DNA of 20,273 nt from a virus. Made by a program: the position numbers and the translations under genes. Below, piece after piece: positions 2,012 to 15,438 of the stretch. The notes under the pieces are model-generated. The model was not told the DNA's origin and did not search any database. It saw only the letters and a list, made by a program, of their open reading frames with translations. Positions within the stretch are counted from its first letter, which is position 1. Each line of letters begins with the position of its first letter. The DNA is taken from the IMG/VR virus record IMGVR_UViG_3300006923_002949, positions 1-20,273 of that record; one strand, given 5' to 3'.

Positions 2012-2515
2012 TTACCAGCCATATCCGCTTTCTGCCATTCGTGTTCTGCGGTCATACTCTTCTTCTCTAGCCCCTTCCTCTGTCTCTTCCTCTGTCTCTT
2101 CCTCTTCGGGAGAGTCTGGAGAATTAAATATGATTTCCCCAGAAGCTTTGTCTTTTTTCCCCCTAATGGAAACATTGTACCCAAGGGCCATCGCAACCAG
2201 CACCAAAATGGCAACAATTCCGGCAATTCCCAGTATTAACTCCCCGGTTGAAGACAGGTTCATTGAGGGCGTATAAATAAAACCCTGTTCATTTGAAACC
2301 TTTTGAAGCGCCAGATATTCTTTTTCCATAATCGGATAAGAGAAGCTTTCTTTTTGCCTAAGAGCTTGAATGGCCCCTGCTGCTCCAGTTACAGACCTGA
2401 CAGTCTTGGGAAGCTGAGTGACGAGACCTTCAATCATGGAGTCGAGATAACTAGCCTCTCTGTAGAGGCCTACCTTGTCCAGGTGATTCGCTAACTTAAT
2501 TAATTCATTTCTCAT
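2012..2515 (-). CDS. Single-span membrane protein with N-terminal LANHLD motif
   Basis: This 167-residue protein has an unknown family. The start is placed at the ATG at 2515 because GGAG lies 8 bases upstream. The longer frame from 2539 would overlap the upstream gene and add only eight residues (MHKIGELQ). Residues 4-27 carry the motif LIKLANHLDKVGLYREASYL, closely matched at the C-terminus of the 176-residue protein at 7808-8338. Residues about 92-112 (GELILGIAGIVAILVLVAMA) form one strong transmembrane helix. It is followed by a basic stretch, RGKKDK, and a very acidic Glu/Thr tail built from a 12-bp DNA repeat, ending in GYGW. Positive-inside logic would place the basic C-terminal flank in the cytoplasm. 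It could be a virion membrane-interacting protein or a lysis-related protein, but nothing identifies it. Confidence 0.72.
   Translation of the reverse strand: MRNELIKLANHLDKVGLYREASYLDSMIEGLVTQLPKTVRSVTGAAGAIQALRQKESFSYPIMEKEYLALQKVSNEQGFIYTPSMNLSSTGELILGIAGIVAILVLVAMALGYNVSIRGKKDKASGEIIFNSPDSPEEEETEEETEEGAREEEYDRRTRMAESGYGW
2075..2104. repeat. 12-bp tandem repeat encoding Glu/Thr tail
   Basis: Two and a half copies of the 12-bp unit ttcctctgtctc (plus strand) lie in tandem and encode an EEET-type acidic repeat in the membrane protein. The repeat is in frame. Confidence 0.85.
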
Positions 2516-2531
2516 TTGTAATTCTCCAATT

Positions 2532-3608
2532 TTATGCAAAATAATTTCTTAAAAAGTCTACGCCAGTTTTGCCTTCAGCCTTGTCTGCCGAGCTATCATT
2601 TGGAGAATATGTTCCACGATCTTTAAACATATGAAATCCGCTATCCATGCAAAGCTGCATTATAGCAAGCTCTTCTCTTTCGTCAATAGAATATTTCTTG
2701 GATAAAAATCCATAAACATCTTCAATAGAGTGACCGCCAGATACATGAGCATTAATCATTATGCCAGAAATAGCCCTCTCAAATGGACTAACTGCGATAA
2801 CAATGTTTCTTGGCGTAGCTGCCTCTTTCTTTAGATCAGAATATTCTACTTCTTCTCCAGATGCACTTACCCAGTTTGGAATTCCATTTTCATCCAAAGA
2901 AGCCTTCTTTCCATGCTCTTCTTTCAGTTTCTTTTTTAGCTTTCCAAGGTGTTCTTTTAAAACCATGATATCTCTCATAATTTTTACCCTGGTATCTTCA
3001 AGGCCTTGTACGTCTAAAGCGTTCTCTGTATCTTCGCGAATAGCTCTTGAAATTTCAGAATTAGTTTTATCTAAAAAGCTAATCGCCTTTTCGCAGCCAA
3101 CCATACTTCTTCCATCATGCTGAGGAATGTTTCCAGGATATTGTCCTGAGATATATTCCATAAACTTAGACAAGTCACCATCGTCCGCATAGTTTGTCTC
3201 TTTCTCCTCTTCGTTGTCATCTAAGTCTTTGGAGCTAATATCGGAACCTGGCAAAAGATCAAGATCTTCTAAAGTTACCTTAGTTACACCTTTATTGTCT
3301 TTTAAAAGTCCTGTTACCTCTTCGTCGAGACCGGCTAACTCTTCTCCCATTTCTCCAAGGCTGCCATCTCCCTCTGTAAATGGACGCAGAAGATCACCAA
3401 GAGTTACGTCTTCTGGGTCATCTTCCGAAGAAGCCATGCCTGCACCAAAAATTTCCTCTGGAGACATATCCTCAAAGGGGTCATCCTCTGCATATGAGGT
3501 GGCCTCATCCTCTGCATATGAGGTGGCCTCATCCTCTACGTATGAGGTGGCCTCATCTGAGAGATAAGTTGATTCTTTAAAAATTGTTTGCTCTAATTTA
3601 GTAGCCAT
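2532..3608 (-). CDS. Hypothetical acidic protein with N-terminal DEATSYAE repeats
   Basis: This 358-residue protein is not recognised. The N-terminal third is extremely acidic and probably disordered. It opens with three tandem octapeptides (DEATSYVE, DEATSYAE, DEATSYAE, residues 18-41), followed by further Asp/Glu-rich sequence. A helical charged stretch (about 190-240) includes LKEHLGKLKKKLKEEHGKKA. The C-terminal part looks folded, with segments such as VSPFERAISGIMINAHVSGG and DVYGFLSKKYSIDEREELAI. The acidic N-terminus, helical core and place in the packaging cassette would fit a scaffolding or internal virion protein, but this is inference only. The start codon ATG lies 8 bases after the stop of the preceding gene, which places its ribosome site inside that gene's end. 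Confidence 0.78.
   Translation of the reverse strand: MATKLEQTIFKESTYLSDEATSYVEDEATSYAEDEATSYAEDDPFEDMSPEEIFGAGMASSEDDPEDVTLGDLLRPFTEGDGSLGEMGEELAGLDEEVTGLLKDNKGVTKVTLEDLDLLPGSDISSKDLDDNEEEKETNYADDGDLSKFMEYISGQYPGNIPQHDGRSMVGCEKAISFLDKTNSEISRAIREDTENALDVQGLEDTRVKIMRDIMVLKEHLGKLKKKLKEEHGKKASLDENGIPNWVSASGEEVEYSDLKKEAATPRNIVIAVSPFERAISGIMINAHVSGGHSIEDVYGFLSKKYSIDEREELAIMQLCMDSGFHMFKDRGTYSPNDSSADKAEGKTGVDFLRNYFA
3486..3557. repeat. Three tandem 24-bp repeats
   Basis: Adjacent units lie at 3486-3509, 3510-3533 and 3534-3557. The first two are identical and the third differs at two positions. Each encodes the octapeptide DEATSY(A/V)E in the acidic protein. There are no spacers, so this is not a CRISPR array. 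Confidence 0.92.
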
Positions 3609-3616
3609 TTTTTCTC

Positions 3617-4027
3617 CTATCCTACCAAGCTGTAAAGCCCATAGTATATATTTCTACTTTCATTATTATCAGAATAATAATCTAACGGATAACCATATTG
3701 AGCTTCTGGCATGTTGCCCACCATAATATGAGGATACAGCGGACTTCCTGTAAGCCCAACATTACCCGCAGGAATAGTAGATTGCTTTGGATCATACTTG
3801 CAGTCTACTGATTCTTTTTCTTTTAAAATCATGTCGGCAAATGGACATTTCGAAACTTCTTCGGTCATAAGCATAAGCTCTAGGTTATCATCCGCTATTT
3901 CTTCAGCTCCCTCTTTGTCGTCAGCCAACTCTAATGGCATCATTTTGGAGATAGCATTACCCGCAGTTTTGCAGCCCATTGTAATTGGAAGGCCAAAGGG
4001 GCACTTTTTTGTTTTTCCTCTAATCAT
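3617..4027 (-). CDS. Small protein with two CPF...C cysteine motifs
   Basis: This 136-residue protein has no assigned function. Two similar cysteine motifs are seen: KKCPFGLPITMGCK at residues 7-20 (Cys9, Cys19) and SKCPFADMILKEKESVDCK at 59-77 (Cys61, Cys76). Together they give four cysteines in two Cys-Pro-Phe...Cys pairs. This could form a metal site or two small loops, but the spacing fits no standard zinc finger known to me. The C-terminal half is rich in Pro, Gly, Tyr and Asn (SPLYPHIMVGNMPEAQYGYP), as in virion-associated proteins. AGGA lies 10 bases upstream of the ATG. It is separated from the nucleotidyltransferase gene by about 41 bases and precedes the acidic repeat protein closely. 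Confidence 0.75.
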   Translation of the reverse strand: MIRGKTKKCPFGLPITMGCKTAGNAISKMMPLELADDKEGAEEIADDNLELMLMTEEVSKCPFADMILKEKESVDCKYDPKQSTIPAGNVGLTGSPLYPHIMVGNMPEAQYGYPLDYYSDNNESRNIYYGLYSLVG

Positions 4028-4068
4028 AGTCTGCGCATCCTACTAAATAAGATAAAGTATTAGTAAAT

Positions 4069-4950
4069 TTACAATTCAATATTTTTTAATTCATGTTTGG
4101 TTAGTTCAACGGCATCGTCTAAATATTTTTTTACCAATTTTCTTTTGATCAACTCTTCTTTAAATGATCCACACAGAGAAACTGTTGGCAGTAAATCCAT
4201 TTCATTTAAATAATGCATTGTTATATCTGCATCATTACTGATTGCTTCTCCTATTATTGAGGTAATAAAAGCCTCTTTTAAAATCCATTTGTTTTCTCCT
4301 GAAAACTTTTCTCTATTAGATCTTGCGTATTCAACAATATCACTGTCTATAGAGAATCCCAGGCGAGCAGCAAAGTTAATTGCTCTATAAATACGCCTAA
4401 AATCATCAGTTAGCGTTATTTCCGAAGGAAGAACTGTTCTTATTATCTTTTTGCTTAAATCTTCTTTTCCCCAGCCTGTAGGGTCTAGCATTTCATCATC
4501 AAAAAACCTTTTATGTAAAGTGTTTACTGTAAAGTCTCTGCTGTAAACTTCAAATAATTTTTTATCTTTAATGGACAACTCTTTAGCTATATAATCAACA
4601 GCTTTTTTTGAAATAAAATGACTTGAAAAATCAAGAATTGTACTTTTTAAGTAAACAGAAATATGTCTATCTGAAAAAAGCTTAAAATTTCTTTTAAATT
4701 TATCAGCACAAAGTATGGCAAGCCTTGTTACGTCAGAATCATTTGTAGTTATATCTATATCCATATACTTAACGCCTTCTCCCTCAGTCCACCGCTGAGG
4801 AACAAGTCCTGGCTCAAGCCTGCTCTTCTCATCACGCTCAAATCTATTTAGAAATAAGTCCCTAGGGATACCTCCAACCAAAAATGGTTCAGATATATAA
4901 TTTTCTTTACAAATTTTTAATATTTGCGAATAGATTTCATCTAAATTCAT
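4069..4950 (-). CDS. tRNA nucleotidyltransferase / poly(A) polymerase head-domain protein
   Basis: This protein belongs to the class II CCA-adding enzyme and poly(A) polymerase family, which adds nucleotides to RNA 3' ends. Visible motifs are LVGGIPRDL at about residues 24-32; the metal-binding pair DIDIT at 64-68; RDFTVNT at 138-144; DPTGWGKEDL at 156-165; and DDFRRIYRAINFAARLGFSI at 182-201, the nucleotide-recognition region. At 293 residues it covers head, neck and perhaps part of the body domain, but is shorter than typical bacterial enzymes of about 400 or more. A charged stretch of about 20 residues (37-59) separates GGxxRD from DxD. The catalytic residues look intact. Whether it adds CCA, only part of it, or poly(A) cannot be read from the sequence. 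It is unusual in that it sits among packaging and virion-type genes, and no tRNA gene was recognised nearby. Confidence 0.88.
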   Translation of the reverse strand: MNLDEIYSQILKICKENYISEPFLVGGIPRDLFLNRFERDEKSRLEPGLVPQRWTEGEGVKYMDIDITTNDSDVTRLAILCADKFKRNFKLFSDRHISVYLKSTILDFSSHFISKKAVDYIAKELSIKDKKLFEVYSRDFTVNTLHKRFFDDEMLDPTGWGKEDLSKKIIRTVLPSEITLTDDFRRIYRAINFAARLGFSIDSDIVEYARSNREKFSGENKWILKEAFITSIIGEAISNDADITMHYLNEMDLLPTVSLCGSFKEELIKRKLVKKYLDDAVELTKHELKNIEL

Positions 4951-4974
4951 TATAGTCTCTTGAGTTAATGTTTG

Positions 4975-6510
4975 TTAAATTACTTCAGCAGCTTCTGGCT
5001 CTGGAGCAGGCGTTTCTTGCTCTGCCTCTTCCTGCCCCGGCAAACCAGCCTGAGCACTAGCTAGTGTTTTTGCGCTAGCAAGTTGACCCATCATCTTTGT
5101 AACCCTGGTGAGAGCATAAGAAAACGCATCAATTAATTTGCTTTGCGATTCTGCAAGCTCTGGAAACATAGATGCAATTCCAATTTTATCAAGCATGATA
5201 TCAAACTCTGCTAGCTGACGAATAATTCTCCTATCCGCAAGAAGCCCCGCTACCTCATCTAGCTTATTGGCTGCATCTTCAAGAGAAATGTCTCCAGCTA
5301 ACTCCTCATATTCGCCCTCTCTAGCTCCAGGCATCGGCGTTATGTCTTCGAGGCTAACCGGCTCAACATCATCTGACCTTGGAATGTTATCAGTTGGTTT
5401 TGGCTCAGACTCCTCTTCTGTCAGCTCTTCCGCTTCTGGCATTTCTGGAGCAACTTGAGCCGCCTCGGGAGCCGCTGCGACAGGAGGGGCCTGCTCTGGC
5501 TCAAGCTCCTCTGGGGCCATGGGGTCCGGAATTTCTTGAGCCACCTTCCTCAATATATCTGCGCCCTCAGAATAGCCTGCCTTTTTAAACATATTTGATG
5601 TTCTATGTGTTATATCAGATGCAGTGCTAGACAGCTTTAGCGTATGAACCTGAAGGCTCAAGTTTAACAAATATTCTGCAAGTAATTTGTAAGTTTCTGG
5701 CTCTACATATTTATCTTTTCTTAATAATTTGTCAATTCGTCGAATAGCCGTGTGCAGCTTTTCTTTCCAAGAATTAAACCTTCCCGCATCTTCAGCGCCC
5801 CCTTTCGCGGCACCTGATGCTCGATCAAAAGATGAAGCATCAAAGCTATCTCCGGGCATATTTTTTCCAGATCCTTTGCCAAGATAGGCACTTCCGCCTT
5901 CGTGATAATAAGGCGTGCCTCCTTGGCCTAGGTTGCTCATATATACAGATTTCTTTTTCATGTGCTCATCCTCTTTTGAACTATATTTTAAGTGCTCACC
6001 CTTACTATAGTATTCAAACCATTTTTTAAACTTGAGATCTTCATCGTTCTCTATATCTAAAAAATTACTATAATAATCTAAAGCATTTTCTTTTTTCATT
6101 TCTTTTTTAGCTACAGCATCATAAATCAAATGAACAACTTCTAGCCATTTATTTACATCAAACTCTTCTCCAATCCTATCGCCAGCATTCGTAAAATTAG
6201 GATATGCAACCTTTTTTATTTTTGCATTACCTAGTTTTAGATTAATTATATTATAATAAGCATCATTTAGATTATTAATGTTTGCATTTAATAATTTTGC
6301 TTTTTCTTCAAAAGAAAGTTTAGCTCCAATATCTTTGGCTGCACTTTTTATAAAGAATAATTTTTTAAATTTATCATCACTATCGATATTCATAGAGCTT
6401 AACTCAATAGATTTTTTTATAATCTTATCAAGCACTGGCTCTGACGCATTAGCAGATAAGCTGGTCAGTTTTTTTAAAAAGTAATCATTTATTTTATCTG
6501 GGAAATTCAT
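4975..6510 (-). CDS. Hypothetical 511-residue protein with Gly-rich and Pro/Glu/Ala-rich segments
   Basis: The family is not recognised. The layout is a helical N-terminal region (1-185), a Gly/Ser/Tyr-rich stretch (about 190-240), a helical segment (245-325), a low-complexity Pro/Glu/Ala linker (about 328-375), a second helical domain (about 400-485) and a Pro/Glu-rich tail. Residues 305-324 (SNMFKKAGYSEGADILRKVA) loosely resemble the LANHLD motif of two other proteins in the window. The ATG overlaps the stop of the preceding 80-residue gene by four bases (ATGA), with AGAGGA just upstream, so translation is probably coupled. Linkers of this kind are common in large-phage virion proteins, but no portal, capsid or protease signature is visible. 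Confidence 0.78.
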   Translation of the reverse strand: MNFPDKINDYFLKKLTSLSANASEPVLDKIIKKSIELSSMNIDSDDKFKKLFFIKSAAKDIGAKLSFEEKAKLLNANINNLNDAYYNIINLKLGNAKIKKVAYPNFTNAGDRIGEEFDVNKWLEVVHLIYDAVAKKEMKKENALDYYSNFLDIENDEDLKFKKWFEYYSKGEHLKYSSKEDEHMKKKSVYMSNLGQGGTPYYHEGGSAYLGKGSGKNMPGDSFDASSFDRASGAAKGGAEDAGRFNSWKEKLHTAIRRIDKLLRKDKYVEPETYKLLAEYLLNLSLQVHTLKLSSTASDITHRTSNMFKKAGYSEGADILRKVAQEIPDPMAPEELEPEQAPPVAAAPEAAQVAPEMPEAEELTEEESEPKPTDNIPRSDDVEPVSLEDITPMPGAREGEYEELAGDISLEDAANKLDEVAGLLADRRIIRQLAEFDIMLDKIGIASMFPELAESQSKLIDAFSYALTRVTKMMGQLASAKTLASAQAGLPGQEEAEQETPAPEPEAAEVI

Positions 6511-6749
6511 TTTTCCTCTATTCTTTCAATTAGCTGATCTATCTGCTCAAACCATTCTCTTTTCTCGAAAACTCTTTGCTCTTTAACTTTGTTTTTAATG
6601 TGTTCTAAAAATATCTTTATATGACTAAACGGAACGCTTTTATCTTCATCGTATAATCCAAGGTTTATTTTGATCCATTCTTCAAAAGATACTAAACTAC
6701 TTAAATCATCAAATCTAAATTTTTTTTTTATTCGGCCATTAATCAACAT
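6507..6749 (-). CDS. Small hypothetical protein between TerS candidate and 511-residue protein
   Basis: This 80-residue unknown protein is rich in Lys, Glu and Phe and is predicted by eye to be helical, with no cysteine motif or membrane span. It overlaps the preceding gene by 11 bases and the following gene by 4, which supports it as a real, translationally coupled gene despite its size. Function unknown. A chaperone-like or accessory role to one of its neighbours would be speculation. Confidence 0.7.
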   Translation of the reverse strand: MLINGRIKKKFRFDDLSSLVSFEEWIKINLGLYDEDKSVPFSHIKIFLEHIKNKVKEQRVFEKREWFEQIDQLIERIEEK

Positions 6750-7425
6750 TTATAACCTCCCCTTGAATATATTTTGTTTCCGATCCATCTAAATGACGCA
6801 TTTTCACATCTAACTTTTCTACAAAAATAGAAATAAGATCTGGACTTAACTCCTGCAACACTTCTAACACCGCTTCTTTTAAGATTCTAGCTTGTTCATT
6901 TACTACACTAATATTAATATTATGTTCAATCTTTTTATCCGCAACACCTTCAATGTACTTTTTCCAATCCTGAAGAATGGTCTTCATCGTGTTAATATAT
7001 TCAATAAAAATCTTATCTTCTCTGAGCGATCCTCCTTGTTGTAATAAATTATAATAGTATTCTATTCTTGAGTTTATAAGAGAGTCCATCTCAAGAAGTC
7101 TTCTTGTTACATCTAGCTCAGATGACGCAATCTCTTCTATTTTTTGTTGATATGCAGAAGAATTATTGATAATCATACGAGCCTCTGCCTCAACAGCCTC
7201 TTTGTCTACCTCTGTTCTTCTGTTTTTTATATCATCTAAGATTTCGCCTTTTAGGTTTAAATGTTTACCTCTAAACTTTTGAAGGGTCATATATGAAACG
7301 TGAAGGCGTTTTGTTCTTGGATATTTCTTTTTAAGCCAACCCTCAACCTGCTTCACAGAGTCGCCCTCTAATAACTTTTTTATAATATCTTCTTTGTCTG
7401 GATGGTTTAAAACTTTTTTGCTCAT
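6739..7425 (-). CDS. Helix-turn-helix / coiled-coil protein, candidate small terminase subunit
   Basis: This 228-residue protein has an N-terminal helix-turn-helix-like region, about residues 12-58 (IIKKLLEGDSVKQVEGWLKK, then HVSYMTLQKFRGKHL). A long helical central part follows (about 75-170), then a C-terminal region ending KYIQGEVINVD. The order DNA-binding HTH, oligomerising helices, C-terminal tail matches small terminase subunits, which recognise phage DNA and load it onto TerL. It opens the cassette that ends with terL, though six genes lie between them, whereas the two are often adjacent. GAGG lies 5 bases before the ATG, directly after an intrinsic terminator, so the gene needs either its own promoter or read-through. 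It could instead be a transcriptional regulator. Confidence 0.5.
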   Translation of the reverse strand: MSKKVLNHPDKEDIIKKLLEGDSVKQVEGWLKKKYPRTKRLHVSYMTLQKFRGKHLNLKGEILDDIKNRRTEVDKEAVEAEARMIINNSSAYQQKIEEIASSELDVTRRLLEMDSLINSRIEYYYNLLQQGGSLREDKIFIEYINTMKTILQDWKKYIEGVADKKIEHNINISVVNEQARILKEAVLEVLQELSPDLISIFVEKLDVKMRHLDGSETKYIQGEVINVD

Positions 7426-7434
7426 GTTAACCTC

Positions 7435-7473
7435 AAAATAAAAAATCCTGGTCTTATATTACTAAGCCAGAAT
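7435..7473 (-). terminator. Rho-independent terminator on minus strand
   Basis: Read on the minus strand, ATTCTGG-CTTA pairs with TAAG-A-CCAGGAT around a 6-nt loop (GTAATA), giving an 11-bp stem with one bulged A and one G-T pair. A T-rich tract (TTTTTTATTTT) follows at once. It lies after the 98-residue gene and before the candidate small terminase, separating the two late blocks. Confidence 0.75.
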
Positions 7474-7505
7474 CTTTTAAAAATAATCTTTATTGTGAAG
7501 GTAAA

Positions 7506-7802
7506 TTACAAAGTATCAATAAAACTTGTAAACCAATTACGTATAGTTGTATCGTTTAAATCGGCCAAACGTATAACGCACATGCCATATTCCGTACTTT
7601 CGTAACCAACCACTGTAGCTGAATACTGAGGCCAAAAACCATAAGACTTCGTGTTAATAGAGAAAACCTCACCACCTGGCGCTGTTACGTTAACAGTTAA
7701 TTCGCCCGAAGTATCGAAGGTAGCTGAATAGCCTGGAAGCTCAGCGATTGCTGAAGCCCAAATTTTCTCCGTACTCGCGTTAGCGACTTCCAATAGAGTC
7801 AT
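7506..7802 (-). CDS. Small hypothetical protein, likely beta-rich
   Basis: This 98-residue protein is not recognised. Alternating hydrophobic and polar residues and segments such as GELTVNVTAPGGEVFSINTK and YSATVVGYESTEYGMCVIRL suggest a small beta-sandwich or roll, with a short helix at each end. It starts 5 bases after the preceding stop, with TTAGGA overlapping that stop, and is the last gene before the terminator at 7435-7473. Its position suggests a minor virion protein, but there is no direct evidence. Confidence 0.7.
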   Translation of the reverse strand: MTLLEVANASTEKIWASAIAELPGYSATFDTSGELTVNVTAPGGEVFSINTKSYGFWPQYSATVVGYESTEYGMCVIRLADLNDTTIRNWFTSFIDTL

Positions 7803-7807
7803 TCTTT

Positions 7808-8338
7808 TTATCCTAATTTTAGCAAAGCGTCTAAATAATTAGCTTCTTTTGTTAACCCTTTTCCATCCAAATGATTTGCCAAATGCATTATGCTGGTTTG
7901 AAGAGCCGCACTTCCGGCCGGATACTCTTGGCCGTCTTCCGTTTTGAATCCTTCATTATAATCATACACCTTGTTTGTGTATGGATCCTGAAAAACTCCA
8001 TCCGAAACTCTCATGGCTTGGACTCCAACTCGGTCTGGAGAATAACGGGTAGACAAATGAGGGGCGACAGAATCTGTGGGGGTGTATGAGTCTTCATGCT
8101 CTGGGGTAAGTCCATATAGACCTTCTGTATCTCTAGACGTTGGAGTGTCGCCACCCCTCATTGCCAAATATCTGTCACGAGAAGCGTATTCTGCTACATT
8201 AGATTGAAAATGCTGAAAAATGCCATGTTGATCTCCAAGAGCCACTTTTTCAAAATGAATTAGCTTGCTCGCCCTGGAGGTTTTTTGTTGATTTGAGGCA
8301 TTTAAAAAATGCTTTAGATCTTCAAATCTATTGCTCAT
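7808..8338 (-). CDS. Hypothetical late protein with C-terminal LANHLD motif
   Basis: This 176-residue protein has an unknown family. The N-terminal and central parts are polar and rich in Tyr, Asp and Ser, and look extended. The C-terminal 27 residues carry a helical hairpin-like motif, IMHLANHLDGKGLTKEANYL followed by DALL (150-173). It shares 13 of 24 positions with the N-terminus of the membrane protein at 2012-2515. An AGGAG site upstream supports the ATG. The gene lies 9 bases after the 519-residue protein. Having the same motif at opposite termini of two otherwise different proteins suggests a portable tag or docking module rather than common descent of the whole proteins. Confidence 0.75.
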   Translation of the reverse strand: MSNRFEDLKHFLNASNQQKTSRASKLIHFEKVALGDQHGIFQHFQSNVAEYASRDRYLAMRGGDTPTSRDTEGLYGLTPEHEDSYTPTDSVAPHLSTRYSPDRVGVQAMRVSDGVFQDPYTNKVYDYNEGFKTEDGQEYPAGSAALQTSIMHLANHLDGKGLTKEANYLDALLKLG

Positions 8339-8347
8339 GTTTATCTC

Positions 8348-9907
8348 CTATGAAATAGCTACTCTTGAAGAGGAAATCATTGCACCTGTTTCGCTAAGGT
8401 TATCTCTCTGGGCCTTTCTTCTTGCAGGAATAGGCCTGCCTCTTGCGTCAAAATCAACCTTATTTGCAGGAAGACCAAGCTTTGGACAATATGGCTGAAC
8501 CGAAGTCGGAACCCTAATAAGATCACCATTTTCCAAAGCATTCTTAATCATAGTATCTCTTTCTGACCCAGAAGAAGCATGCTTCAAAAGCTTAGAAAAC
8601 TTATCGAGAGCTGACAGGTAGTGCTGTCCGCCAAACTTTGAACTAACTACACCCAAAGCGTCTTCTGCCTGCTTATAATCAGACCTTGAAACGCCATCGA
8701 TAATTCTATCGACAAGCTGATTGTAGGACAGTCTTGTCATTTCAGCAGTTTCTCTTGATACCTTGTTTAAATCTGCATCACGATTTGCTGCCTTTATAAT
8801 TGAAGAAAGACCAGATTCATTTAATTTGTAAATCTTTTCGCCAACAGTAAAGTTGCTAGGAATTACCGGCCTACCATTAGGCATATCAACCGGAATATTT
8901 ATCTCTACTCGGCCACGAGAGGTGGGGATGTCAGCGGCAAAAGAAAGAACCTTATCGTTTGAGGATGCTACTCGAACCTGTGGATTTGGAATTCCAAAGC
9001 CAGCTAATTCTGCAGCAACTACATTTGTAGCAAGTCTGACTTGGCTTCTATCATAACAAGAAGCTGCTGCAACCAATTCGTTTTCTAGATTTGCAAATTT
9101 CTCTAAACTAGCGGGAATAACAGGCGTATCAACCTTAAACTCTCTAGAGCTTCTCTGAGATGCAAACTTGCCCATAGATGCTTTTCTCTTAAAGTTATTT
9201 TTATCCTTTATATAGACATATAAATTTTCTTTATTTAATTTTACAAGCTTATCATCTTGGACAAAATGAGTGGGCAAAGAGGGGATCCCATTAGTTACTT
9301 GCACAGGTATGGGCACGCTCACTTGCGTGAGGTCAGACGTGTCAATGGATGCATTGCAAAGAATAAAATGATCATTAGAGCGAATAGCCTTCACGAGTTG
9401 GGGGACGCACCCTAATGAAACTAATTGTAATTTTGCAAACTTTTCTGCCTTTCTCATTGAGTTATTAGAAAATGCAGAAAAAGAGCCTTTCTTATCTAGA
9501 GAAAAGACACCCGCAAGCTCTCTGGAAAGTTCGTTGTCTGCATACAAAGGAGGTATAGCATTTTCGCAAGGAATTCTTGACCCAGCTGCACCATGAGGCT
9601 CCAGAGTTAAAGCGGCATGCTTCTCTGGCAGAAGATCTTCGGCTTCCTTTCTGAAAGAGGATCTTCCGCCCGACATGCCATAAAGATGATCATAAATTTC
9701 TCCAATTTCTTTTTGAGAAATAAACTTTCTGCTTGAGGCTCTCTTGACCATAATGTCACGCATATGACAAATTAAAGCATCTCTAGAGTTATTGGCCGCT
9801 GCTTTTTCTAGCCTGCTTAGAACATATGATGTTGTAAACGTCTTTCCGTTGTTTAGCTTGTCTAATGCTCTTTTGGCTTCTGCCGCTATTTTTCTTACTT
9901 CATTCAT
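8348..9907 (-). CDS. Large hypothetical structural-type protein with internal domain duplication
   Basis: This 519-residue protein is not recognised. Two regions of about 80 residues are clearly related. Around 155-234 one sees VSVPIPVQVTNGIPSLPTHF followed by KLVKLNKENL; around 291-372 one sees VEINIPVDMPNGRPVIPSNF followed by KIYKLNESGL. The stretches before these also align (AKLQLVSLGCVPQLVKAIRS with VAAELAGFGIPNPQVRVASS). The N-terminus is helical and basic. The C-terminal tail (FDARGRPIPARRKAQRDNLS) is basic and probably flexible. AAAGGAT precedes the ATG. Its size and location next to other late-type genes suggest a virion component, but no known capsid, portal, tail or protease motif is visible. 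Confidence 0.8.
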   Translation of the reverse strand: MNEVRKIAAEAKRALDKLNNGKTFTTSYVLSRLEKAAANNSRDALICHMRDIMVKRASSRKFISQKEIGEIYDHLYGMSGGRSSFRKEAEDLLPEKHAALTLEPHGAAGSRIPCENAIPPLYADNELSRELAGVFSLDKKGSFSAFSNNSMRKAEKFAKLQLVSLGCVPQLVKAIRSNDHFILCNASIDTSDLTQVSVPIPVQVTNGIPSLPTHFVQDDKLVKLNKENLYVYIKDKNNFKRKASMGKFASQRSSREFKVDTPVIPASLEKFANLENELVAAASCYDRSQVRLATNVVAAELAGFGIPNPQVRVASSNDKVLSFAADIPTSRGRVEINIPVDMPNGRPVIPSNFTVGEKIYKLNESGLSSIIKAANRDADLNKVSRETAEMTRLSYNQLVDRIIDGVSRSDYKQAEDALGVVSSKFGGQHYLSALDKFSKLLKHASSGSERDTMIKNALENGDLIRVPTSVQPYCPKLGLPANKVDFDARGRPIPARRKAQRDNLSETGAMISSSRVAIS

Positions 9908-9918
9908 TATATATCCTT

Positions 9919-10389
9919 TTATTTTAATAATTCTGGAAAAAGACTTTCAATAGCCTCTGCTTTAGCTTTTGGCTGACTAGCAATAACTTTTTTTACAAAC
10001 TCTTGATCTGATCCAACAACATCCAATAAGGCTGACTTAAATGTAAAAACATCATCACCTGTAAATCCAAATTCATCTGAAGAAAAACTACAAATTGGAA
10101 CCCTCTTATAGGAAAGAGTTACATTGTTATATTCGTAATTACTAGAGGTGCTCCAATCTCCACCTTCTTTTACCTGATATTGAGGATCAGAGCCTCTGAT
10201 TAAATACTTTGCTCCATCAACATCTTCCATTTTCCATAAATCATTATAATGATCGCCCATTACCTTGTATATATCAAAAGCAACTTTCTTTATTTTTAAA
10301 TCATCAGATAAAGGCAGTCTGTCTTTCGATGAAATATCAGACGATTGCTTTTTAAATAATTTGATTAGAACTTCATCTAATTCAGACAT
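9919..10389 (-). CDS. Hypothetical protein, first gene after a 106-base gap
   Basis: This 156-residue unknown protein has a helical N-terminus (MSELDEVLIKLFKK), a central region with probable beta structure (YEYNNVTLSYKRVPICSFSS) and a helical end (SQPKAKAEAIESLFPELLK). AAGGAG lies 8 bases upstream of the ATG. It stands at the head of the block ending at the terminator at 7435-7473, behind a gap that carries an AT-rich motif shared with the gap before the decoration-like protein. This suggests a promoter nearby. No function can be given. Confidence 0.72.
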   Translation of the reverse strand: MSELDEVLIKLFKKQSSDISSKDRLPLSDDLKIKKVAFDIYKVMGDHYNDLWKMEDVDGAKYLIRGSDPQYQVKEGGDWSTSSNYEYNNVTLSYKRVPICSFSSDEFGFTGDDVFTFKSALLDVVGSDQEFVKKVIASQPKAKAEAIESLFPELLK

Positions 10390-10495: not shown

Positions 10496-10936
10496 TTAAA
10501 TCGGACCCCCAGAAAGGCTGAACCGAGCATAAACCGTGGGTGTTCCAGCGTCAGCTTTAAGCTTTATTCTGAAAAAACGATTGGCACGAACCGGCATTAT
10601 GATTGGCAGAAACAAAGCAGGAACAGTGGCCATGGTATCAACTCCAGCTTTTTGAAGCTCGTAATCACTAAGGGTAGCGACCCCGGCTGTTACATCCTCT
10701 GTCTGTAGAGATGCCCAGACCGCATCGGACGCGCCACCTGTATCGCTGACCTGAATTTGAGCATCTATGCGTGTAGCCGAAGACTTTGTAACAACATAAA
10801 TAAAAAATCCAACGTATTTATGCCCCTCTGTAGATATAGCTGGGGATGTCGTACCTGCAGCGTAAGCGGTCCCTAAGGTAACAGGACTTCCGCTACTTCC
10901 AATGCTATCATCAAAATTTGGTGGCCAATTTGGCAT
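10496..10936 (-). CDS. Putative virion decoration or other beta-rich structural protein
   Basis: This 146-residue protein is rich in Ala, Gly, Ser, Thr and Val, with alternating strand-like segments (GHKYVGFFIYVVTKSSATRI, ANRFFRIKLKADAGTPTVYA) ending in RFSLSGGPI. It reads as an immunoglobulin-like or jelly-roll beta-sandwich, as in capsid decoration or tail-associated proteins, and cysteines are absent. The coding sequence is visibly richer in G+C than its neighbours and uses codons such as GCC, ACC and GCG, as expected of a highly expressed gene. AGAGGA precedes the ATG, and a 100-base gap upstream holds a TATAAT and a motif shared with the next gap. A major capsid protein cannot be excluded, though the length is short for that. 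Confidence 0.6.
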   Translation of the reverse strand: MPNWPPNFDDSIGSSGSPVTLGTAYAAGTTSPAISTEGHKYVGFFIYVVTKSSATRIDAQIQVSDTGGASDAVWASLQTEDVTAGVATLSDYELQKAGVDTMATVPALFLPIIMPVRANRFFRIKLKADAGTPTVYARFSLSGGPI

Positions 10937-13782: not shown

Positions 13783-15438
13783 TTAGTATTTGTGTCTTAG
13801 AGAGCCCTCTTCGGGCGGTCGCCATCCAGCAGGAGGTTGCCAGCTAGAAGGATCATCTGCTTGTTCGGATACAATTGCATCTGTATTTATCAATAATAAT
13901 GAAATACTTGCAGCATTTTGAAGGGCAGTTCTTGTGACCTTTTTGGGGTCAATAACTCCAGCCTCAACCATATCTTCAAATATACCGGTTGCTGCATTGT
14001 ATCCAAAGTTAATATTTTTTGAACTCAAAACTTTCTTAATAATCTCATCTGAGTCCTCAAATGCATTTTCCACAATTTGTGTAATTGGACGCACACACGC
14101 GTCTATGAGCACCTGTGCAGCAGGTACCAAGTTTTTATCTAACTTAGACAAATCAACTCTTTGTGCTGCCCTTAACAGGGCAACGCCACCGCCTGGAACA
14201 AAGCCTTCTTCAAGAGCAGCTTTTGTTGCGCAAATAGAATCATCGACTCTATCTCCCTTTTCTCTCAGCTCAAGCTCGGTTAAGTAGCCAACCGTTATTA
14301 CGGCTGCTTTATTTTTTAAGAAAGCTATTCTTTTCTTAACGTCTAGCCTCGCCGTATCTCCTATTAGCTTATTCATATCATCAAGATATAACTTGAGTTT
14401 TTTCTCTAATCTTTCTTCGTCTTTGTTACCCTCTACAATTTTAGTTAGAAACCTATTTACAACAACCTTTTTTGCAAACCCTAAATCAGAAGATTTTGCT
14501 CCAGAAAGCGGTCTTCCAGATGTATTTCCGAAGACTGTTGTTCCGACCAAAGCAGATAATGCGCCAAGCCATTCTGCCTGACTGCCAACGCCAGCCCCTA
14601 AAACCGGAAGCTTAACCGCCACAACCTTTAGTCTTCCCAACTTATTGTTGGCAACCAATGTTGCCAAAGCTTCTTGCTTTACGTCTTTTGCCAAAATCAA
14701 AATTGGAAGATTATTATTAGATAATTCTGTCAACATAGGCAGGCATGGACCTAGTGTTGCGATCTCATCTTCGCAAATTAATATATTGCAATTACCTATA
14801 ACAACATCGGATTGACCATCCTCGGTTAAAAAGGCGGGCGTTATAAAGCCATTATCTAACTCTACGCCATCTGCAAATCTAACTGAAACTCCAGGGCCAG
14901 GAGAAGCCTCTGCCACAACAGTTCCCTCTAGTCCAACCTCATTAAATGCTTCGGCTATTTTATCGCCTATCTCGCTATCATTGTTTGCAGAAATTGTAGC
15001 AATACTCCTAAGAGGCTCAAATCCCTCAATCTCTGTTGTCATTCCATTTAATTCTTCTAGGATTCTTTCTACGGCCCACTCTACTCCGCGCTTAAAATAA
15101 AGAGGACTATAATTATTGTTAATTAAATCATTTCCTCTTTTAAATATTTCATGAGCCAAAACTGTAGCTGTAGTTGTTCCATCTCCAGCTACAGCAGCTG
15201 TTCGTCCTGCCGCCTCTTTGATTAGCTGACAGGCCAGTTCCTCAATGGGATCCTTAAGGGTGACCTCTCTAGCGACTGTTACGCCATCCTTTGTGAGAAC
15301 GGGGGCCCCTACAAATTTCCCCAATATCACATGCTTGCCTTGCGGACCCATTGTTACGCCTACAGTTTTGGCCAATTTTTCCGCCCCAGATAAAAGAGCC
15401 CTTCTTGCCTCTTTGTTGTAAGTTAAGTCTTTAGCCAT
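13783..15438 (-). CDS. groEL: GroEL-type chaperonin (HSP60) of phage
   Basis: This group I chaperonin subunit of 551 residues is close to the normal length. The equatorial ATP site is intact: GVTMGPQGKH (27-36), TKDGVTVARE with Asp51, AGDGTTTATVLA (84-95), RVDDSICATKAALEEG with Asp400 (E. coli Asp398), and FVPGGGVALL (413-422). Apical hydrophobic positions used for substrate and GroES are mostly kept, though the E. coli PYF is PAF here. The highly conserved PGFGDRRK is replaced by PVLGAGVGSQ (278-287). The C-terminus is PPAGWRPPEEGSLRHKY instead of a Gly-Gly-Met tail. No GroES gene lies in this window. The start overlaps the ruvC-like stop by 8 bases with AAAGGAG upstream. Probable roles are folding capsid or other phage proteins. 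Confidence 0.95.
   Translation of the reverse strand: MAKDLTYNKEARRALLSGAEKLAKTVGVTMGPQGKHVILGKFVGAPVLTKDGVTVAREVTLKDPIEELACQLIKEAAGRTAAVAGDGTTTATVLAHEIFKRGNDLINNNYSPLYFKRGVEWAVERILEELNGMTTEIEGFEPLRSIATISANNDSEIGDKIAEAFNEVGLEGTVVAEASPGPGVSVRFADGVELDNGFITPAFLTEDGQSDVVIGNCNILICEDEIATLGPCLPMLTELSNNNLPILILAKDVKQEALATLVANNKLGRLKVVAVKLPVLGAGVGSQAEWLGALSALVGTTVFGNTSGRPLSGAKSSDLGFAKKVVVNRFLTKIVEGNKDEERLEKKLKLYLDDMNKLIGDTARLDVKKRIAFLKNKAAVITVGYLTELELREKGDRVDDSICATKAALEEGFVPGGGVALLRAAQRVDLSKLDKNLVPAAQVLIDACVRPITQIVENAFEDSDEIIKKVLSSKNINFGYNAATGIFEDMVEAGVIDPKKVTRTALQNAASISLLLINTDAIVSEQADDPSSWQPPAGWRPPEEGSLRHKY

Follow-up and report, generated by a model that had tools for sequence, protein, structure and literature searches.

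A 31-residue helical hairpin on unrelated proteins as a probable capsid-targeting propeptide of uncultured jumbo myoviruses

A short tag shared by unrelated phage proteins

The DNA analysed here, referred to as the window, is the entire IMG/VR record IMGVR_UViG_3300006923_002949, a viral fragment of 20,273 bases. Two of its proteins carry a common sequence element, the tag, at opposite ends of otherwise dissimilar chains. In related genomes, the tag is found on many more proteins, mostly at the N-terminus, where it usually ends in a motif that is enriched in head proteins. From sequence comparison, the tag probably serves a lineage of uncultured jumbo myoviruses as a capsid-targeting propeptide; it would be an analogue of the capsid-targeting sequence (CTS) of phage T4, to which no relationship is detectable.

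The initial annotation had described the motif LANHLD-x2-GL-x2-EA-x-YLD at the N-terminus of one protein and at the C-terminus of another, and both placements were recovered. The first copy (MRNELIKLANHLDKVGLYREASYLDSMIE, positions 2429..2515, minus strand, profile E-value 2.8e-18) forms residues 1-29 of a 167-amino-acid protein (2012..2515, minus strand) that also has a single hydrophobic stretch and an acidic C-terminal tail. The second copy (LQTSIMHLANHLDGKGLTKEANYLDALLK, 7817..7903, minus strand, E 7.2e-18) forms residues 146-174, the C-terminus, of a 176-amino-acid protein (7808..8338, minus strand) whose homology to relatives places it in a tag-bearing family. That both genes are encoded on the minus strand corrects the earlier description. 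Local alignment of the two proteins scored 76, compared with 53 for the best of 3000 shuffles, and nothing outside the motif aligns, in agreement with the claim that the remainders are dissimilar. The two copies are identical at 13 of 18 core positions; just four of these 13 residues are encoded by the same codon, which points to conservation at the protein level and not to a recent copy. The ATG at 2515 is likely the start of the 167-amino-acid protein, because it is aligned with the start of other N-terminal tags and has GGAG upstream.

A third, looser copy (KKAGYSEGADIL, 5551..5586, minus strand) had been proposed at residues 309-320 of a 511-amino-acid protein, just ahead of a fully conserved LxKxA. 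Its sequence alignment was not significant and profile-profile comparison (hhalign) gave 5.6%, although this weak match does fall at the claimed place; a tag copy in the 511-amino-acid protein is not supported. Profile searches of the kind that the initial annotation had proposed left just two copies in the whole fragment but found many in relatives, so that the refuting outcome of no additional copies is itself refuted.

The tag as a movable cassette

The complete module is far larger than the 24 residues first noted, with a 31-residue consensus, MxKELIKLANHLDSxGLxKEADYLDSIIKKA, in which L12, D13, G16, A21 and D25 are near-invariant. AlphaFold2 models it as a helical hairpin with helices at residues 2-14 and 18-30 (mean predicted local distance difference test score, pLDDT, 95.7). 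The earlier remark that no named family was known for the element was borne out, and the match to a generic helical domain that would have refuted the earlier idea did not turn up: neither a Pfam search with the consensus nor a PDB search with the profile gave a match, including to the tetratricopeptide or other known helical-hairpin repeats. Weak tag-like hairpins were detected by profile-profile comparison in two conserved proteins, the G004_160 family (95%) and the G004_098 family (70%), a hint that hairpins contact each other within the core.

Twelve related records of uncultured jumbo myoviruses, with 2,210 predicted proteins, were searched with the tag profile. At E<1e-4 it found 85 copies, and none of 4,420 decoy proteins, reversed or shuffled, scored better than E 4.5. 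Among these copies, 64 are N-terminal or Met-starting, 11 C-terminal and 10 internal, with up to three in one protein. Inside one genome the tagged bodies are unrelated save for three pairs. When near-identical tags are compared, similarity of the DNA spans the ATG to about codon 32 and drops to chance on both sides; G002_154 and G002_156, for instance, are 95% identical within the tag. The pair G004_161/162 is exceptional in that the upstream flanks are also alike, because the preceding genes have similar ends. Judged by these boundaries, the tag is a movable cassette copied between genes as DNA. In parallel, other modules appear to be shuffled, since a stretch of about 50 amino acids (ENRPLTTxEIAxLFxxHEDxSS...NLxEEEAAIVD) is common to a tagged protein (G002_153, L043:17900-18934) and to the family of the 176-amino-acid protein (G004_111, L104:18062-19162).

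A second common motif was observed at the C-termini of several tagged proteins, approximately DRIxKLAELLSxEF followed by a terminal RR, and it holds IxKxA itself. It is carried at L107:10713-13380 (G004_161-163), L096:8964-10970 (G006_107-108), L080:13283-14053 (G003_092) and L055:3819-6556 (G007_076-077).

Distribution in one lineage of jumbo myoviruses

In IMG/VR, 38 stretches matched a pattern of the tag, and many of them have several copies on different proteins. The first profile search found 23 copies in G002 (a 223-kb contig), 14 in G001 (316 kb) and 11 in G003 (232 kb), and two additional DNA-pattern scans of IMG/VR gave 58 further distinct copies in other contigs. G002 and G004 are 100% identical across about 103 kb and therefore represent a single phage of about 342 kb. 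At E<1e-4 its tagged proteins number 27, of which G002 contributes 21 and G004 six, with none in the overlap.

Synteny of the window extends to every gene in G001, G003, G004, G006, G009 and G010, and most of its genes are also present in G005, G008 and G011. G002 is the other part of the genome of G004, and G007 is a more distant member of the lineage. The conserved block comprises the terminase large subunit, the portal, a head-maturation-protease domain within a protein of 1121-1139 amino acids and the major capsid protein. These phages are identified as myoviruses by a tail sheath of 1080 amino acids, and their major capsid protein is nearest, among annotated isolates, to that of Bacillus phage G (46.5% identity).

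Outside this lineage, tblastn of the tag against isolate phages (50,697 records) gave chance matches only (E 0.4-6), namely to polymerases of single-stranded RNA phages, to a minor tail protein (Gordonia) and to an internal virion protein (Pseudomonas phage). None was confirmed in GTDB species genomes with a degenerate peptide pattern and none was found there with a stricter DNA pattern, nor was any found in plasmids. The profile did not find the tag in phage G, Tunturi_5, Rctr197k, LR745208, T4 or phiKZ, and the literature searched holds no mention of the core motif string. As far as these searches reach, the tag is almost solely a feature of this lineage of uncultured jumbo myoviruses.

A motif specific to head proteins

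Pairs of residues with one residue between them (about 400 such pairs) were ranked by their enrichment in the head-gene block. K-x-A headed the ranking in six of seven genomes and took second place in the remaining one (z 4.1-6.9), compared with ranks of 75th to 235th in the rest of the same proteomes. The sequence context is [L/I/M/F]-x-K-x-A followed by preference by Q or S, at the P1' position. With tagged proteins excluded from the counts, [LIMF]xKxA occurs 277 times in the head block for 63 expected (4.4-fold), compared with 42 for 43 in the tail block (0.97) and 104 for 99 in the replication block (1.05). A mere effect of composition was rejected by within-protein shuffles together with these tail and replication controls. 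In all five examined genomes that have a head block, the motif peaked there in sliding windows. In three genomes tested by gene block, z was 9.7-10.4 for the head block and never above 3.3 for the others. Orthologs conserve the K and A of these sites (0.72 and 0.68) better than other K and A (0.51 and 0.46; p ~4e-5), and several conserved sites precede Gly/Pro-rich stretches.

The same statistic was applied to head genes of control phages, in which it ranked I-x-E first and L-x-E third for T4, and S-x-E second for phiKZ. Since it finds the known motifs of these phages, [LIMF]xKxA is read as the prohead-protease cleavage motif of the lineage. We infer this from its enrichment, which is confined to the head proteins of each genome, as would be expected for the substrates of such a protease. 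The head block also encodes a predicted head-maturation protease: phrog_18299 matches residues 113-211 of the 1121-amino-acid protein G010_006 (E 4.1e-13), a domain for which Pfam gave no match. In G010_006 (L075:5277-8642) and its orthologs, this domain is N-terminal in a protein of 1121-1139 amino acids rich in predicted cut sites (14 K-x-A for 2.6 expected), which suggests a protease-scaffold fusion.

K-x-A also ranks first in head genes of phage G and Tunturi_5. In phage G, gp19 has seven candidate sites with [LIMFV] at P5, and the portal has MAKQA at residues 16-20. The mature capsid protein of phage G has 255 of 282 residues by N-terminal sequencing (PMC5646251), which places the cut at Ala-27|Gln-28. 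This deduced cut fits the P1 Ala and the preferred P1' Gln of the lineage studied here.

The motif at the end of the tag

Within the tag, matches to the motif are almost confined to three starting columns, 5, 17 and 27/28. The match at the tag end (residues 26-40) is present in 35 of 52 Met-starting copies, compared with a mean of 2.2 and a maximum of 7 in shuffles, and Q is the commonest P1' residue there. In the next three 15-residue windows behind the tag, no Met-starting copy has the motif. In the same way, none of the 11 C-terminal copies has it at the tag end. The end motif moves as a unit between two registers, A31 occurring with K29 in 24 of 30 cases and A32 with K30 in 23 of 26. The first two matches overlap conserved helix positions; the first copy of the window holds one of them (LIKLA, residues 5-9). 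Outside tags, the segment richest in LxKxA in G002, which is without the head block, is the cluster of tag genes, and G004 and G006 each show a second peak at their own tag-gene cluster.

Proteins that carry the tag

Several tagged proteins have recognizable domains. G002_202 has an ArdC-N (anti-restriction) domain above the Pfam cut-off, G009_076 matches PG_binding_1 (peptidoglycan-binding), G003_106 weakly matches LysM and some bodies have endolysin-like PHROG matches. A tRNA-nucleotidyltransferase-like protein, G002_214, bears a C-terminal copy, and many small uncharacterised proteins outside the head block are tagged as well. G002_153 had been suspected as a peptidase; a PDB search with it gave no match. 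In G001_198 (L066:15144-15623), a hydrophobic stretch with a lipobox-like Cys (MIALCFAVAATGASGC) stands directly after the tag, and a cut at the tag end looks as if it would uncover an apparent lipoprotein signal.

Proposed role and alternative explanations

For a capsid-targeting propeptide, the following course can be proposed. The hairpin would dock tagged proteins on the prohead core, for which the protease-fused protein of 1121-1139 amino acids and a conserved 184-amino-acid head protein with a tag-like hairpin (the G004_098 family) are candidate receptors. Once the cargo is enclosed in the prohead, the protease would cut behind the hairpin, at the tag end, and thereby free the cargo within the head, where it would be packed with the DNA. 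The freed proteins, for example those with anti-restriction or cell-wall-acting domains, would probably be ejected with the DNA into the next host. A wider proposal is that the whole lineage uses a single movable 31-residue cassette, which spreads as a piece of DNA bounded by the start codon and the cleavage site, to load a large and rapidly changing arsenal for injection (27 tagged proteins were found in one genome). A prohead protease of new specificity (LxKxA) would act with it, and the tag would then list most injected proteins; we regard the chances of this as evenly balanced. The earlier idea of a tag for prohead targeting or cleavage-linked delivery is thus strengthened by a movable cassette on unrelated proteins, mostly N-terminal and usually ending in the head motif, while the third copy drops out of it.

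Several observations weigh against a targeting propeptide. Among the 58 further copies, just 22 of the 42 N-terminal ones have the end site, and about one third of the Met-starting tags are without it, as is the N-terminal copy of the window (residues 27-31 MIEGL; SMIEGLV). The C-terminal and internal copies misfit a simple N-terminal propeptide; among them is the second copy of the window, which no end site could take off from the front. A docking element may possibly be kept in some cases. Alanines 9 and 21 are conserved even where the lysines are lost, and the two inner LxKxA matches may therefore be structural. At P3, the cut in phage G has Ala in place of Lys. Neither phage G nor Tunturi_5 has a tag, although both show KxA, and the longer LxKxA motif has no peak in the head genes of Tunturi_5. 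Moreover, packaging, cleavage and injection of the tagged proteins are all deduced from sequence.

Part of this evidence would suit a permanent docking element: the hairpin would stay on the tagged proteins and attach them to a single hub of the virion (portal, scaffold or capsid interior), and [LIMF]xKxA may then be something different. The copies at C-termini and inside proteins, up to three per chain, lack any removable-end logic, and the hairpin core is better conserved than the end site. We nevertheless hold permanent docking to be unlikely, as one would not expect from it the sharp placement of the motif at the end of Met-starting tags, its shift of register or its absence from C-terminal copies. 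A different objection concerns the motif itself, which could be a helix or coiled-coil signature of head-core proteins that is present in the tag for structural reasons. L and A at i and i+4 share one helix face, and two of the three motif positions of the tag lie within helices. We consider such a signature quite unlikely in view of the recovery of the known protease motifs of T4 and phiKZ by the same statistic, the preference for Q/S at P1', the Gly/Pro-rich stretches after several conserved sites and the published Ala|Gln cut of phage G.

It is very unlikely that the tag sorts proteins inside the cell, for instance to a phage nucleus or another replication compartment, and not to the head. 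The tag on the tRNA-nucleotidyltransferase-like protein and those on the small uncharacterised proteins outside the head block would agree with such sorting, but the tag contains a head-specific motif, and LxKxA outside tags peaks at a tag-gene cluster in G002, with a second peak at the tag-gene cluster in G004 and in G006. Finally, the lack of Pfam and PDB matches, the strict conservation of D13, G16 and D25, the restriction to one phage lineage and the preference for N-termini make it highly improbable that a generic hairpin, of the kind found in tetratricopeptide repeats, was spread by gene conversion and mutation with no common function, even if the tag is a short helical hairpin copied in the manner of a cassette.

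If the targeting propeptide is real, the tag would list from sequence alone the packaged, and probably injected, proteins of these giant phages, and it would yield candidate anti-defence and cell-entry proteins that present annotation fails to name. It would also supply a rule that predicts cleavages during head assembly in the lineage of which phage G is a member, as well as a candidate targeting peptide to load foreign proteins into large capsids. The head-block statistic of spaced pairs, which ranks the known motifs of T4 and phiKZ first or close to first, is applicable to any jumbo phage.

Comparison with known systems

The internal proteins of T4 are diverse defence proteins in which only the CTS is conserved (PMC3012670). 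This short N-terminal element of IPI-III and Alt serves for encapsidation of otherwise diverse proteins, anti-restriction cargo among them, and is removed by the prohead protease (PMC3012670, PMC5694885). The tag likewise is a short, mostly N-terminal element on otherwise unrelated proteins. It differs from the CTS by its length and fold (a 31-residue helical hairpin and not 10-20 residues), by the predicted cut (LxKxA instead of I/L-x-E), by the 27 tagged proteins of one genome and by its additional C-terminal and internal copies. The tag profile had no match in the T4 genome at E<=10, with a positive control included in the same search, which also covered phiKZ. The tag would thus work like the CTS, yet identity with it is not supported by homology.

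SPN3US and phiKZ are giant phages whose head and ejection proteins have propeptides with several prohead protease sites, and the paralogs gp53 and gp54 of this type have their first 15 residues in common (PMC5694885, PMC10052503). These propeptides differ from the tag in being mostly of 111-254 residues and cut at A/S-x-E, and the tag is unmatched in phiKZ. Bacillus phage G, the nearest isolate by capsid protein, resembles the lineage in the first rank of KxA in head genes, and its capsid protein is processed N-terminally (PMC5646251), by deduction at Ala|Gln. Its genome differs in being without the tag. DarA, DarB and Hdf of phage P1 are anti-restriction proteins located in the head (PMC12810830), which is their likeness to the cargo proposed above. 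They differ in that, to our knowledge, they share no N-terminal cassette.

Gene content of the window and minor observations

The window starts with a terminase large subunit truncated by the contig end (1..1422, minus strand), whose full-length homolog G010_013 matches phrog_675 (E 4.1e-62); the window is therefore part of the head-gene block. In the gene slot of the 167-amino-acid protein, tagged proteins with dissimilar bodies are also found in G004 and G010. The family of the 176-amino-acid protein is conserved in all syntenic relatives with zero to three tag copies per member. The window member has a predicted cleavage motif, FEKVA|LGDQH, at residues 29-33 (8240..8254, minus strand; motif in 7/9 orthologs), immediately ahead of its conserved body. 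Its predicted structure (mean pLDDT 47.9) was too low in confidence for use.

Further predicted cleavage motifs lie on the minus strand in neighbouring genes. The 511-amino-acid protein (4975-6510) has LRKVA|QEIPD at residues 320-324 (5539..5553; 9/9 orthologs, flank identity 0.49) and IKKVA|YPNFT at residues 98-102 (6205..6219; 8/9 orthologs, flank identity 0.29). A 156-amino-acid protein has IKKVA|FDIYK (10279..10293; 9/9 orthologs) and a 358-amino-acid protein LKKEA|ATPRN (2820..2834; 8/8 orthologs). A 519-amino-acid protein of the head block (8348..9907, minus strand) contains nine [LIMFV]xKxA motifs, and its [LIMF]xKxA density is the highest of the proteins listed outside the reference block.

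Inside the conserved block, comparison with the relatives gave no homolog for the open reading frames at 7506-7802 (98 amino acids) and 10496-10936 (146 amino acids), which may have been inserted recently. In G010, a PurZ-like enzyme (phrog_1211), a DHH phosphoesterase and a dehydrogenase are clustered (L078:11034-12050, L078:10156-11031 and L078:6652-7752), a gene content that possibly indicates base-modified (2-aminoadenine) DNA. Finally, one phage genome would hold two divergent GroEL-like genes, represented by 13783-15438 of the window and G004_169 (198654-200258 of G004), which share 35% identity.

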